Origin: Archaeoglobaceae archaeon
GTDB taxonomy: Archaea; Halobacteriota; Archaeoglobi; Archaeoglobales; Archaeoglobaceae
DNA: 37,810 nt
Assembly: GCA_026986375.1 (NCBI GenBank)
Contig: JALSOQ010000017.1
Coordinates: forward strand, 1-37,810
Direction: 5' to 3'
How positions within the stretch are numbered: the first letter of the stretch is position 1; every line of letters begins with the position of its first letter. Below are positions 20,272 to 25,549 of the stretch, one piece after another. The position numbers were made by a program, and so were the translations under genes. The notes below the pieces were generated by a model. The model searched no databases, was not told the DNA's origin, and saw nothing but the letters and a program-made list of their open reading frames with translations.

Positions 20272-20313
20272 AAATTTATTAAAGTTAAACGACGAACTAT
20301 ACATTAGGTGGTG
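20272..20313 (+). promoter_or_regulatory. Promoter and ribosome-binding site of the first tetraheme cytochrome
   Basis: An AAATTTATTAAAG element at about 20272-20284 is followed by a GGTGGT site at 20307-20312, seven bases before the ATG at 20320. Unlike most genes here, this one would have a short leader with a ribosome-binding site. Confidence 0.5.
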
Positions 20314-20319
20314 GTCAAA

Positions 20320-21132
20320 ATGAACCTGAGTAAAGTCCTGTTGCTTGCGGTGATAGTGGCGGCAACGGGCTTGGTCGTTCTTCCAAACACGGTATCGCTG
20401 TTTGCAGGTCAGCACTACTGGTATAACATAAGCGGGCCTGGTAACCAGATTCCCTGCCAGAAATGTCACGCTGATGTGTTCGAGGAACTGGCCCTAAGCA
20501 ACTTCCACACACACTGGGGCCCTAACGGATGGAACCCATCATCCAAGGGAGTTGCGGATCAATACGACTGTGCGGCTTGTCATAGAAGTAACCTCAGCAT
20601 TCAGTACGCCCTCGTTAACGGTAGTGTTGTGAAATATCAGCCGGGTAAGCAGGCTCACGCTGCGAGCGTGGTTGCATGTATGCTCTGCCATCAGATAAAC
20701 GCCAGCAAGGCTACTTGGGCTCCCGGATTCTACGCCGGAGGATTTAACATAACTCCCTTTGTAAAGGCCGGTGAGATACCCAAGTCACCGTACAAGTACT
20801 CGAACGCAACTTACAACGGTCTATACGCTGCTCACAACGCTTTCATAGCTATGGCTATAAAGAATAACACACTTCCTGACTCGACTGAAGCTTGCATAGC
20901 GTGCCACACTCATGTTGCCGTTAAAATTACTTGGAAGCACAAGAGGAGTCTCGAGTTTACTGTAAACATAACGAATCCAGTTACTCTCAGCAACGGAGTG
21001 CATAACTGGAACGTTAGTGATTGGAAAGTCAACGGAACGGCTACCGCGATATCTTGGGGTAACACCACCGGATACGGTAATACGAGCTACTGGTCTGGAT
21101 GGCCCGGTAACGTTAGCAATATCTACAGTTGA
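20320..21132 (+). CDS. Exported tetraheme c-type cytochrome, candidate filament-forming (nanowire) subunit
   Basis: A 270-residue protein with a signal peptide (MNLSKVLLLAVIVAATGLV). It has four CxxCH heme sites: CQKCH (46-50), CAACH (84-88), CMLCH (120-124) and CIACH (192-196). At least eight other histidines can act as distal ligands (for example NFHTHW, AAHNAF, THVAV, WKHKR and VHNWN). More than ten N-x-S/T sequons suggest heavy glycosylation. No membrane anchor other than the signal peptide is seen. Tetraheme cytochromes of this type form extracellular filaments in Archaeoglobus veneficus and Pyrobaculum calidifontis; assignment here rests on size, heme count, sequons and taxonomy. The ATG at 20320 follows a GGTGGT site; GTG 20308 is upstream. 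The downstream T-rich repeats suggest strong, separate expression. Confidence 0.85.
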   Translation: MNLSKVLLLAVIVAATGLVVLPNTVSLFAGQHYWYNISGPGNQIPCQKCHADVFEELALSNFHTHWGPNGWNPSSKGVADQYDCAACHRSNLSIQYALVNGSVVKYQPGKQAHAASVVACMLCHQINASKATWAPGFYAGGFNITPFVKAGEIPKSPYKYSNATYNGLYAAHNAFIAMAIKNNTLPDSTEACIACHTHVAVKITWKHKRSLEFTVNITNPVTLSNGVHNWNVSDWKVNGTATAISWGNTTGYGNTSYWSGWPGNVSNIYS

Positions 21133-21206
21133 TCGCGTATTGATTATTTTATATTTACTTATTTTTATACTTATTTTTATAAAGTTATTTTTTATAAAGT
21201 TATAAG
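21133..21206 (+). terminator. Tandem T-rich terminator repeats
   Basis: The spacer after the cytochrome stop holds two perfect tandem duplications: ACTTATTTTTAT twice (21157-21168, 21169-21180) and TTTTTATAAAGTTAT twice (21174-21188, 21189-21203), overlapping each other. The repeated oligo-T tracts are what archaeal RNA polymerase uses to terminate. Confidence 0.65.
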
Positions 21207-21285
21207 CCAGCTATGGTTTGGCGAAAACATTATATTTTAGTTTAAGATATCGCAATTAGGGAGAAATGTATTACTGGTGATAATT

Positions 21286-22197
21286 ATGGATATTATGAGA
21301 AGAGAAACATTATCGTTCATGTTAAAGTTCGCATTTCCAGCGGTTATAGTTGGCGTGATACTGTTACCGAATATATCTATAGCCATACTCAAGCACTCCG
21401 AACATAAATTTCGATCCGTGGAACATCCTACATTGGAGGAAAGGTTAGTTTTTTCGGAAATAATAGACGTTCCAGCATCCAAACCCGTTAAGGTGAAACT
21501 TCCAAAGGATGTGGCGAAGGGCTTGGGGTTACTTTCGTTGGAGATTAAGCTACCCAAGAGCATGAAGTTGATAGTTAACGTGTCCGAGGTTTTGAATCCG
21601 CCTCCACCCTTGGAGGAGTTCTTGCTCATTTCAGTTTTCGACATAACTTTTAGAGATGCCGAAACGGAAGAAATCATGGAGCCTTCCGGCAGGATTTACT
21701 TCTCGGTTTCGAAGGACTTCTTCGAATCGACCAAGTTCGATCCAAAAAAGGTCGTGATGCTGAAGTTTCGCGGGGATTGGATTAGGCTGAGGACCGAGAT
21801 GCTCGGTGAGGACAACGAGAGCTACTACTATGTTGCGGAAACGAAATCTTTCAGCGTGTTCGCGATAGCGGTTTACAGAATTGCGAGCGAAAACTGTAGC
21901 GAGTGCCATCCGGATGTCGCTACCGAGGTGAGCATGTCTCCCTACCACAACTTTAACTGCACTTTCTGCCATCCGGGGATGAGCAGAAACGTTACGTGCG
22001 TTCAGTGCCACTTCGATATAGGTAGCTTCTCCGCTCACAAGAATTTCATAGAGTGGGCGGAGAACAACTCCCTAATGATGGGATCGAACGAAGCTTGCAT
22101 AGGTTGCCACACAAATGCCAAGATCCCGATATACAACGTCACCGAGAGGACGCACCTATCCTTTACGTTCGACATGTCGGAACTTCACGGAAGGTGA
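21286..22197 (+). CDS. PGF-pre-PGF-like domain fused to a tetraheme cytochrome module
   Basis: A protein of about 303 residues. The N-terminus has a membrane segment (near residues 11-36). Residues about 50-195 look like the archaeal surface PGF-pre-PGF domain: SVFDITFRDAETEE, GRIYFSVSKDFF, VVMLKFRGDWIRL and KSFSVFAIAVY. The C-terminal part holds four heme sites, CSECH, CTFCH, CVQCH and CIGCH. Its first and last heme segments resemble those of the upstream cytochrome (CHPDVATEVSMSPYHNF and EACIGCHTN). The ATG at 21286 follows GGTGAT; a TATTATAT-like element lies further up. It may anchor or terminate a cytochrome filament, or pass electrons to it; both roles are inferred. Confidence 0.8.
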   Translation: MDIMRRETLSFMLKFAFPAVIVGVILLPNISIAILKHSEHKFRSVEHPTLEERLVFSEIIDVPASKPVKVKLPKDVAKGLGLLSLEIKLPKSMKLIVNVSEVLNPPPPLEEFLLISVFDITFRDAETEEIMEPSGRIYFSVSKDFFESTKFDPKKVVMLKFRGDWIRLRTEMLGEDNESYYYVAETKSFSVFAIAVYRIASENCSECHPDVATEVSMSPYHNFNCTFCHPGMSRNVTCVQCHFDIGSFSAHKNFIEWAENNSLMMGSNEACIGCHTNAKIPIYNVTERTHLSFTFDMSELHGR

Positions 22198-22278: not shown

Positions 22279-23076
22279 ATGATGTTGCATCCCTGCTACA
22301 GCAACTCCGCGCACTTCAAATACGCGAGAATTCATCTGCCCGTCGCCGAGAATTGTAATGTCCACTGCAACTACTGCGTCAGAACGTTCTGCGTGAACGA
22401 AAGCAGGCCGGGTGTAGCGGACAGGATAATTCGACCCGAAGGGGTTCTCGAATACTTGGACGATATAATGAGAAGGATACCGGCAGAAACGACTGTAATT
22501 GGTATAAGTGGTCCGGGAGAGCCGTTGTTCAACGAAGAAACTTTTGAAGCCCTTAGGATCGTAAATGAGAACTACCCTAATCTTTTTAAGTGCGTAGCTA
22601 CTAACGGTCTTCTTTTGGAAGACCGAATTGACGACTTAATCGAATGCGATGTTACGCACGTCACGGTCACAATTAACGCCGTAACGCCTTACACCGCATC
22701 TCGCATATACTCTTGGATCTACTACAACAGTAGGGTCTACAGAGGAATAGAGGCGGGAGAAGTTATGGTTCTAAAGCAGTTCGGAGGTTTGAGGGAGGCT
22801 GCCGAAGCCGGTATTCTCGTCAAGGTCAATACTGTCTATGTTCCCGGAATAAACGATCACGAAATAGTCGAAATAGCCAAGGCCGTCTCGAATTATGCAT
22901 ACATCATGAACATAATGCCGCTCATACCTTTGGGTAAGTTCAGAAATATCCGGAGACCGAGTGTGGAGGAGATAAGTGCGGTGAGGAAAAAGGCTGGAAG
23001 ATACGTTAAGCAGTTCTACCACTGTAAGCAGTGTAGGGCGGACGCATACGGTGTTCCGGGGTGTCCAAATGGTTGA
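22279..23076 (+). CDS. NifB-like radical SAM cofactor-core synthase (minimal form)
   Basis: A 265-residue protein matching NifB, which builds the [8Fe-9S-C] NifB-co precursor of nitrogenase cofactors. The family block HPCYSNSAHFKYARIHLPVA is followed by the radical SAM cysteines CNVHCNYC (C26, C30, C33). C37 and NESRPGV come next, then GISGPGEPL, KCVATNGLLL, VKVNTVYVPGIND, MPLIPLGKF and the C-terminal CKQCRADAYG. All ligand-type cysteines appear present. It lacks the C-terminal NifX-like domain found in many bacterial NifB proteins, as in archaeal NifB. It is first in an operon with NifE-like and NifN-like genes. Activity is inferred from motif completeness. Confidence 0.92.
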   Translation: MMLHPCYSNSAHFKYARIHLPVAENCNVHCNYCVRTFCVNESRPGVADRIIRPEGVLEYLDDIMRRIPAETTVIGISGPGEPLFNEETFEALRIVNENYPNLFKCVATNGLLLEDRIDDLIECDVTHVTVTINAVTPYTASRIYSWIYYNSRVYRGIEAGEVMVLKQFGGLREAAEAGILVKVNTVYVPGINDHEIVEIAKAVSNYAYIMNIMPLIPLGKFRNIRRPSVEEISAVRKKAGRYVKQFYHCKQCRADAYGVPGCPNG

Positions 23077-24314
23077 GCTCGAAACAACACCTGGGGATTT
23101 TACCGAGAGGGGGTTGCTCCTTTTTAGGATGTAGGGTGGTCATATGCGGGCAGATAAGAAACGTGGTTCACATAGTCCACTCTCCTATAGGATGTGCATA
23201 CTACTCTTGGGATTATAGGGCGGACTCAAGGGGATACTGCTTTACGACCGATTTAAACGAGATGGATATAATCTTCGGTGGAGAGAATAAGTTGCTTAAG
23301 GCGGTTCTTAAGGTGATAGAAGAGTTCAAGCCTGATGCCGTATTTATATATGAAACTTGCAGTAGCGGGATAATAGGAGATGATATTCAATTCGTCGCAG
23401 AGAAGGCGAGTCAAATTACTGAAGTTCCGGTTTTAGCGTTCGAATGTGCTGGATTTAGGGGGAGAAGTCAAAACTTCGGGCATAAAATAGCGAACTTGTG
23501 TCTCTTCAAGCTGATGCTCGACGGGGAGAGAAATGCTATTCCGAACGGGGTGAACGTCATAGGTGATTTTAACTCGAAGGATGCGGAAGCTTTGGAAGGG
23601 ATGCTTAGGAGAATAGGTCTAAATGTCGTATGCACGTTCACAGCAAACGCCACCATCGAAAAGATAAGGAACATGAAGAACGCGAGCCTCAACTTGGTTC
23701 AGTGTAGCAGAAGTTCGGAATTCTTGGCAAAATTGATGGAGGAGAAGTTTGGAATCCCCTATCTGGATGTGAACTTCTTCGGCATAGAAAACTGTTGCGA
23801 GTCCCTTCGTAGAATAGCGGAATTTTTTCCGACGCATTCGAGTGTAATAGAGGATTTCATTGACAGGAATCTGAGGAGGATCGAAGGTAAGTTAAGAGAA
23901 TACAGAAAGAGCCTCGAAGGTAAGACTGTTTTTATATGCCATGGGGCGCAGAGGGTTTTTTATTGGATAAAACCCTTCGAGGAGTTGGAAATGGACATAG
24001 TGGGTGTGGCGACGTACTTCAGCAAGAAGGACGATCGAGAAAAGTTGCTGAGGATGCTGGGGGTTCCGGTAGTCGACAATCCGAGCGTAGATGAACTTGA
24101 AGAAATGCTGTTGGATTTAAAGCCAGATTTAGTCGTTTCGGATGATAAAATAAGACATCTTGTGCACAAGCTCTCAATACCGTTTTTAAACGGTAGGGGG
24201 CAGGGAAAGGCATACGTTGGATTCAGCGGATTTTTGGATTTCTCTAAGGATGTTTACGAAACCGTGAATACTAAGATTTGGACGCTCGCGAGGAGGGATC
24301 GATTTTGGAATTGA
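23061..24314 (+). CDS. NifE/NifD-like nitrogenase component 1 alpha-type protein
   Basis: A 417-residue relative of NifD and NifE. Three cysteines sit at the P-/O-cluster positions: C19 (RGGCSF), C45 (SPIGCAYY) and C100 (YETCSSG). A nitrogenase-type FTTDLNEMDIIFGGENKL follows. GFRGRSQNFGHKIAN keeps the Gln and His found near the FeMo-cofactor in NifD (NifE usually has other residues there). C215 in NLVQCSRS matches the cofactor-binding Cys of NifD. The C-terminal cofactor histidine of NifD appears to be replaced by Asn (FLNGRGQGKAYVG), as in NifE. It begins with GTG inside the end of nifB (16-base overlap). A cofactor scaffold or a reductase of unknown substrate are both possible. Confidence 0.85.
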   Translation: MSKWLSSKQHLGILPRGGCSFLGCRVVICGQIRNVVHIVHSPIGCAYYSWDYRADSRGYCFTTDLNEMDIIFGGENKLLKAVLKVIEEFKPDAVFIYETCSSGIIGDDIQFVAEKASQITEVPVLAFECAGFRGRSQNFGHKIANLCLFKLMLDGERNAIPNGVNVIGDFNSKDAEALEGMLRRIGLNVVCTFTANATIEKIRNMKNASLNLVQCSRSSEFLAKLMEEKFGIPYLDVNFFGIENCCESLRRIAEFFPTHSSVIEDFIDRNLRRIEGKLREYRKSLEGKTVFICHGAQRVFYWIKPFEELEMDIVGVATYFSKKDDREKLLRMLGVPVVDNPSVDELEEMLLDLKPDLVVSDDKIRHLVHKLSIPFLNGRGQGKAYVGFSGFLDFSKDVYETVNTKIWTLARRDRFWN

Positions 24315-25549
24315 AGATCAATCCTCCTAAGATGTGTCAGTTGGCGGGAGCGATAATCACTACGTTGGGTGTTGAGGGGGCCGTTCCTCTCATTCACGGT
24401 TCTCAGGGTTGCGCGAACTTCGTAAAACATCTCATGACGAAGCACTTCAAGGAGCCAATAGAGGTGGCGACGACCGCTCTTAACGAGAAGGTAATAGCTT
24501 CTGGCGGTGAGAGAAACCTTGTCGAGGCGATAAAGAATCTGAAGGAAAGAATCGATCCGGATCTGATAGTAGTTATGACCACATGCTTGACGGAGACGAT
24601 AGGTGAAAACGTCGAGATAGCGAAGAACTTCGACGGAGTTGTGGTCGTTAGAACACCCTCCTACTCGGGAATACATATAGACGGTTACGATAAGACCGTG
24701 GAGGCCATACTTTCCATCTGTGAGAGGGAAGAGAGGGAGGAAAGAGTAAACGTAATAACGGGGTTCGTGAATCCGGGGGATGTCAAAGAGATAAAGAAAA
24801 TCTGCGGGGAAATGATAGATTACATGCTCGTGACCGATTTAACCGCTTTGGACAGACCCGTCCTTAAGAAGAGGAAAAGCGAGACGTGCGTTGAAGATTT
24901 GAAATCCTGCGCCAACGCTATTGCCACGGTCTGCTTCGGAAGTGAAGGATTGAGCGGTGCCAAGCTTTTGGAGGGGTTCGGCGTTCCAACACACAACATC
25001 AGGTTTCCGATAGGGATTGAGAACACGGACAGATTCGTCTCCACGTTAGCGAGAATTGCTGGCATTGAAGTTCCGGACAGTATTTTGGATGAGAGGGGTT
25101 ACGCTTTGGACGGCATAATAGATACCAACCACGTTTTGAGAGGTAAGAGGGTGGCGATATTTGGGGACCCTGATAAGGTCATAGCTTTAACGGAGTTCGC
25201 CTTCGAGGTGGGAATGAGGGTTGTGGCTGTGCTGAGTCCGATTAGGAGGATGTATTTTGCTGAAGAGGTAAAGGCGATAGCGAATGCCAACCGAGTTAAG
25301 ATTGCCGTGTTCGAGGATTCCGATCTATACACATTGCACAAGTTTCTCAAGAACAACCGCGTGGACGTTCTTATAGGAGATTACAGGGGAAGGTATATAG
25401 CGAAGGAGGAGAAGATACCCCTGCTTAGAGTTGGATTTCCGATTTGCGACAGGTTCGGATATCACAGAAAGCCTATGCTCGGATACGGCGGAGCTTTGAG
25501 GATGGCGGAGGAGATCGCCAACATGCTCGTCGGGGGATACTACGGATAA
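24305..25549 (+). CDS. NifN/NifK-like nitrogenase component 1 beta-type protein
   Basis: A protein of about 414 residues paired with the preceding gene. It has the NifK/NifN hallmarks KMCQLAGAIITTLGVEG, IHGSQGCANFVKHL, HFKEPIEVATTALNE and MTTCLTETIGEN. The three cysteines (C11, C36 and C94 from TTG 24305) match the NifK P-cluster set; bacterial NifN usually keeps fewer. The start is probably TTG 24305, six bases after GGAGGGATC. It overlaps the NifE-like gene by 10 bases; an upstream TTG at 24278 is possible. With NifE-like it would form an alpha2beta2 complex. No nifH gene is in the window. Confidence 0.85.
   Translation: MELKINPPKMCQLAGAIITTLGVEGAVPLIHGSQGCANFVKHLMTKHFKEPIEVATTALNEKVIASGGERNLVEAIKNLKERIDPDLIVVMTTCLTETIGENVEIAKNFDGVVVVRTPSYSGIHIDGYDKTVEAILSICEREEREERVNVITGFVNPGDVKEIKKICGEMIDYMLVTDLTALDRPVLKKRKSETCVEDLKSCANAIATVCFGSEGLSGAKLLEGFGVPTHNIRFPIGIENTDRFVSTLARIAGIEVPDSILDERGYALDGIIDTNHVLRGKRVAIFGDPDKVIALTEFAFEVGMRVVAVLSPIRRMYFAEEVKAIANANRVKIAVFEDSDLYTLHKFLKNNRVDVLIGDYRGRYIAKEEKIPLLRVGFPICDRFGYHRKPMLGYGGALRMAEEIANMLVGGYYG

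Follow-up and report, generated by a model that had tools for sequence, protein, structure and literature searches.

The window, a stretch of 37,810 nucleotides from an Archaeoglobaceae archaeon, contains an operon of three genes, nifB, alpha and beta (Table 1), which probably serves cofactor assembly as one half of a split nif system of the Mo type. In this system, alpha and beta would form a second, independent NifEN-like maturase derived from a self-maturing NifDK. By ordinary annotation the three genes would be named nifB, nifE and nifN. The three overlapping plus-strand ORFs reported in a preliminary description of this DNA were confirmed at the coordinates listed below.

Table 1. Genes of the nifB-alpha-beta operon and key residues of their products, in window positions
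Feature	Position	Strand	Description
nifB	22279..23076	+	minimal radical-SAM NifB, without NifX domain, 265 aa
alpha gene (nifE position, NifD descent)	23061..24314	+	417 aa, GTG start, 16-base overlap with nifB
alpha Cys19 = NifD C62	23115..23117	+	alignment
alpha Cys45 = NifD C88	23193..23195	+	alignment
alpha Cys100 = NifD C154	23358..23360	+	alignment
alpha Gln137...His141 = NifD Q191...H195	23469..23483	+	alignment
alpha Cys215 = NifD C275 / NifE C250, cofactor cysteine	23703..23705	+	alignment; ligand role from PMC13031127
alpha Arg379, at the position of cofactor ligand H442	24195..24197	+	alignment; Arg in 10/10 orthologs
beta gene (nifN position)	24278..25549	+	423 aa, TTG start, 37-base overlap with alpha
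beta Cys20 = NifK C70	24335..24337	+	alignment; present in 5/5 Archaeoglobaceae; all five methanococcal orthologs have lost it
beta Cys45 = NifK C95	24410..24412	+	alignment; invariant
beta Cys103 = NifK C153	24584..24586	+	alignment; present in 5/5 Archaeoglobaceae; all five methanococcal orthologs have Gly

The nifB product, besides which no protein of the genome matched NifB well, aligned with TIGR01290 over residues 4-261 (E 1.7e-83) with a score of 280.8 bits, which is below the cut-off of 343.65, the 441-position model extending past the minimal form of NifB. It contains both the radical-SAM motif CX3CX2C, read directly in the ORF as CNVHCNYC, and the NifB-specific CxxCRADAxG; the NifB-type CKQCRADAYGVPG was also read directly. 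As had been proposed, the protein has the complete length of a minimal archaeal NifB. Alpha and beta both matched PF00148 end to end (E 1.3e-93 and 4.5e-114, respectively), and the nearest named relatives of alpha come from Archaeoglobaceae MAGs. Structure models (pLDDT 88 for alpha and 90 for beta) confirmed the fold, and Foldseek listed the MoFe alpha subunit first and NifE at rank 50, a ranking that mostly echoes sequence. Membership in the CfbD/DPOR families was rejected, since these NCBIfam models gave at most 101 bits versus 320-364 for the NifD/NifE or NifK/VnfK models. Likewise, the nitrogenase-like chains 9fmg/9d9u, which we take to be Mar, scored no higher than 98.6 bits versus 281-301 for nitrogenase chains, and membership in Mar was rejected as well. 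Two multiheme cytochrome-like genes, the second with a PGF-pre-PGF domain, are located immediately 5' of nifB (20308-22197). Operators of the NrpR type (GGAAN6TTCC) were absent near the operon and near nifH, and their counts were close to those expected by chance.

The preliminary description considered the operon an orphan, possibly encoding a maturase without a client, in an apparently non-diazotrophic archaeon, with no nifH, nifD, nifK or nifI beside it. These genes are indeed missing from the window, but the genome, assembled into 30 contigs (99.9% complete) with the window as contig C17, contains all of them, and the recommended search for NifH and NifDK found both. Contig C22 carries nifH-nifI1-nifI2-nifD, where nifD is represented by its first 243 residues and runs off the contig start, while contig C29 carries the 3' end of nifK (the last 199 residues), which runs off the contig end. 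The 284-aa NifH scored above the cut-off of the NCBIfam equivalog. In relatives, nifHI1I2DK is followed by a small ORF, and the same ORF is located 3' of nifK on C29; since it is conserved at this place in archaeoglobal and methanococcal nif loci, C22 and C29 bracket one operon. The missing middle of nifDK, about 1.5 kb as judged from genome G010, is an assembly gap, and an intact NifDK is likely in this species; nif sets that are broken or incomplete occur in further genomes of its genus. The C-termini of NifK in this genome and in G010 share 98.5% identity. Given the nifHI1I2DK locus, the orphan reading was rejected, and that of a non-diazotroph is not supported. Two small proteins encoded after nifK (L015:11411-11731 and L015:11044-11301) had no NCBIfam match; the former is kept after nifK in Archaeoglobaceae and Methanococci, and the latter was found in Archaeoglobaceae only.

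Inspection of related genomes showed the two halves of the system together. The whole nif set is present on one contig in the sister genus. The nifHI1I2DK and nifB-alpha-beta clusters share a contig in G010 (about 32 kb apart) and in G042 (L126; within 10 kb), and in Methanococci the alpha/beta orthologs are located directly 3' of nifHI1I2DK. Alpha and beta were found in 12 genomes, five of Archaeoglobaceae and seven of Methanococci. All 12 encode NifDK and 11 encode NifH, the contig of the twelfth beginning inside nifI1. An additional canonical NifE was found in none of them, possibly except G043, whose extra set is a second, Vnf-type locus. Three other genomes (G080, G053 and Desulforudis) combine the same NifDK type with a stand-alone NifE and have no alpha/beta, in agreement with the presence of nifE without nifN in FS406-22 (PMC8809328) and the lack of nifN in most F-Mc taxa (PMC7216921). 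The G000 ranking of G010, G044, G043 and G042 was nearly the same for NifK and alpha. A separate transfer, argued from the anomalous identity of NifHDK, was dropped from consideration, since the order of relatives is almost the same for NifHDK and alpha/beta, the main difference being one of rate. Identity to the sister genus was 54-70% for two housekeeping proteins. Frameshifted, partial or remnant nifD, nifK or nifI2, and no nifB, alpha or beta, were observed in G002, G001, G004, G021 and G003 (loci L046, L047, L048, L050 and L051), which suggests either ongoing nif loss in the family or assembly errors.

In the alpha tree of 60 rows, the NifD clade included alpha together with its nine orthologs (support 99/98 and 97/98), which did not group with canonical NifE. 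The concatenated tree of both subunits (39 pairs) set canonical NifEN apart from a group of NifDK and alpha/beta (100/100) and placed the pair in the F-Mc/Vnf/seep subgroup (99/99); the Roseiflexus NifDK was left out of the trees. Neither alpha nor the concatenated pair belonged to a monophyletic canonical NifE/NifN clade, and the trees place their descent within NifDK rather than NifEN. The AU test rejected the grouping of alpha with canonical NifE (p 0.008), with stand-alone NifE (p 0.015) and with all NifE (p 0.030), as well as that of the pair with canonical NifEN (p 0.034). Origin from a recent duplication of the genome's own NifDK was excluded by the 35% identity of alpha to G010 NifD and by AU tests against grouping with the own NifD type (p 0.044 for alpha) or own-type NifDK (p 0.004 for the pair). 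These rejections are moderate (p 0.004-0.044), the union with NifEN being the null fixed beforehand and several of the other tests being picked after the tree. A joint clade of the pair and methane-seep NifDK was not rejected (p 0.36). In its tree, beta alone was not part of the canonical NifN clade, and its AU tests gave p 0.118 with canonical NifN and p 0.133 with seep NifK. Of the combination that the preliminary description regarded as fatal to its reading, a nifHDK locus elsewhere in the genome with the pair nested in ordinary NifEN, the first part was found and the second was not.

Alpha retains the equivalents of NifD C62, C88, C154, R96, Q191, H195, C275 and R359, in line with the three cluster cysteines, the Gln and His and the cofactor cysteine recognized earlier from the sequence. 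The Gln and His are not unique to alpha, being retained also in stand-alone NifE of Methanococci and Desulforudis. Canonical NifE has K191, mostly Y195, N442, K359 and T381, and at positions 191/195/442/359 alpha has Q/H/R/R instead of K/Y/N/K. The residue replacing the cofactor ligand His442 of NifD is Arg379 rather than the NifE-like Asn reported previously; the Asn occupies position 440, where it also occurs in NifD of the wider clade. Stand-alone NifE has Pro at 442. The aromatic residue at 444 is absent in all ten alpha orthologs. In functional terms, alpha/beta would be of the NifEN kind: a NifDK-like pair encoded with NifB and NifHDK, with the cofactor Cys kept and both His442 and the 444 aromatic absent (10/10 orthologs). 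The cofactor of Azotobacter NifEN is bound through C250, which corresponds to C275, and a weak Gln; it has been proposed that the cofactor can leave again because His442 and Trp444 are missing (PMC13031127). The alignment shows the same loss in alpha, through another substitution. The mixture of catalytic and scaffold residues described earlier is real, and it is explained by descent of the pair from the NifDK side rather than from canonical NifEN.

Beta, as had been proposed, carries a NifK-like set of three cysteines, and together alpha (19/45/100) and beta (20/45/103) have all six P-cluster cysteines, from which an 8Fe P-cluster is predicted in the archaeoglobal proteins. The accompanying statement that NifN usually lacks the TTC cysteine was not borne out: in the first panel, all three are present in each of the 10 canonical NifN from outside the proteobacteria. 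Two of the three are missing in both proteobacterial NifN examined, those of Paraburkholderia and Rhizobium, which have Ser, Cys, and Gly or Ala at these positions, and the five methanococcal beta orthologs have Asn or Asp, Cys, and Gly. Since the methanococcal and proteobacterial lineages are separate in the trees, parallel loss is the best reading.

The closest counterparts of the pair are nifE/nifN of methanogens of the Methanothermococcus type (Methanothermococcus sp. SCGC AD-155 and the Methanococci G069, G070, G075, G076 and G078). They are orthologous (46-56% alpha identity), belong to the same nif system and share the Arg at 442, but are located directly after nifDK, in ordinary-looking nif operons, and their beta lacks C70 and C153. 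Both nifE and nifN are induced in diazotrophic Methanothermococcus thermolithotrophicus (PMC9765008), which would fit a maturase role if its alleles are the alpha/beta orthologs. Canonical NifEN of Azotobacter and relatives has the same operon partners, the cofactor Cys and neither His442 nor the 444 aromatic, but forms a separate clade with K/Y at 191/195, N at 442 and K at 359, and proteobacterial NifN lacks two of the cysteines kept by archaeoglobal beta. The NifD closest in sequence (38-42% to alpha), and from the same tree region, belongs to methane-seep NifDK (ANME, Methanoperedens, Hydrothermarchaeota), which however keeps His442 and the aromatic and serves as the catalytic component. 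Stand-alone NifE of Methanocaldococcus FS406-22-like taxa and Desulforudis accompanies the same NifDK type and keeps Q191/H195, but has no NifN partner, belongs to a different clade and has Pro at 442.

According to the proposed scheme, NifB would make the 8Fe core (NifB-co, or L-cluster), and the alpha/beta complex would take it up, holding one end by Cys215. Together with NifH and homocitrate, the complex would mature the core, and the matured cofactor would be handed to NifDK encoded elsewhere in the genome. Alpha/beta would descend from NifDK of the group containing methane-seep (ANME) nitrogenases and would not be orthologous to canonical NifEN. Facing the Mo end of the cofactor, the ancestor would have lost both the His and the aromatic lock, and an active site that held the cofactor permanently would thereby become one that holds it only for a time. 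The evolutionary step would be short because the NifDK ancestor presumably already matured its own cofactor. A model is provided by NifDK of Roseiflexus, which matures its own cofactor without NifEN (PMC11573651) and differs from alpha/beta in being catalytic and keeping its function. The seep group has no nifEN, and its nearest relative is reported to be Roseiflexus (PMC9012536). Retention of Gln191, His195 and R359, absent in canonical NifE, speaks against the proposed scheme.

The pair could instead be a canonical NifEN, fast-diverging in thermophilic archaea, that works as in Azotobacter and is attracted to NifD by a tree artefact. Its operon position and partners are those of NifEN, a union with canonical NifN is compatible with the beta data alone, and the p value of 0.034 for the pair is only modest; nevertheless, we consider this unlikely, since alpha has NifD residues in place of the canonical NifE set, the grouping with NifDK is supported at 99-100 in two data sets, and AU rejects alpha with canonical NifE. 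Also improbable, and somewhat more so, is that the genes are leftovers in a species that stopped fixing N2, the operon decaying or being retained for another role. The broken, partial or incomplete nif sets of five relatives and the unassembled middle of nifDK would agree with such decay, but nifB, alpha, beta, nifH, nifI1 and nifI2 are each full-length and open with intact ligands, and the NifK C-terminus is almost identical to that of G010.

The least probable reading, to which we assign very little weight, is a second catalytic enzyme, a nitrogenase-like reductase with the all-Fe NifB-co held by one Cys and a P-cluster passing electrons from NifH. Such an enzyme could account for the six P-cluster-type cysteines and the retained Q191, H195, C275 and R359, and both NifEN and L-cluster-loaded NifDK reduce N2 (PMC11168457). 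On the other hand, alpha/beta occur only alongside NifDK (12/12 genomes), replacing NifE rather than adding to it, none of the orthologs has H442 or the aromatic lock, and the methanococcal orthologs lack two P-cluster cysteines. Of the two roles suggested in the preliminary description, the reductase with a simplified cofactor is less likely than the maturase.

Whether NifEN arose from NifDK or the reverse is disputed, and a single origin of NifEN is usually assumed (PMC8399215, PMC11573651, PMC11168457). Our data raise the possibility that scaffolds of this kind arose on two occasions. The chances appear evenly balanced for a scenario in which NifEN evolved at least two times, Archaeoglobaceae and part of Methanococci demoted a self-maturing NifDK via His442 to Arg, the archaeoglobal form still has a P-cluster, and the two beta cysteines missing from proteobacterial NifN were lost independently in the methanococcal form. 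If so, the archaeoglobal form would show the state before, and the methanococcal form the state after, one and the same transition. With its residue path known, a second, later NifEN would make the switch from enzyme to maturase directly testable, including the proposal that loss of two beta cysteines, and hence of the P-cluster, marks this change (PMC11168457). It would also explain how a two-subunit scaffold was acquired by some of the F-Mc nitrogenases, which for the most part lack NifN. In the literature searched, with incomplete coverage of the key nitrogenase-phylogeny works, no account of the descent of these pairs from NifDK was found.

Other nitrogenase-like loci were observed in the analysed genomes. 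In the second nif-like set of G043, an archaeoglobal MAG (L214:2375-9416, contig C139), D and K group with VnfD/VnfK at 100/100; two further PF00148 ORFs are present in this set, and a similar set occurs in G100. Four genomes, G022 (L049:3490-6312), G028, G030 and G039 (L020, L021 and L022), encode a family of single-subunit proteins of about 400 aa, which are about equally similar to NifD/E and NifK/N and contain three cluster-type cysteines and a C275-like Cys. All four genomes have nifB, and in G022 the single-subunit gene adjoins a nifH-like gene, with nifB in convergent orientation. This family is possibly a one-subunit, NifB-dependent nitrogenase-like enzyme.
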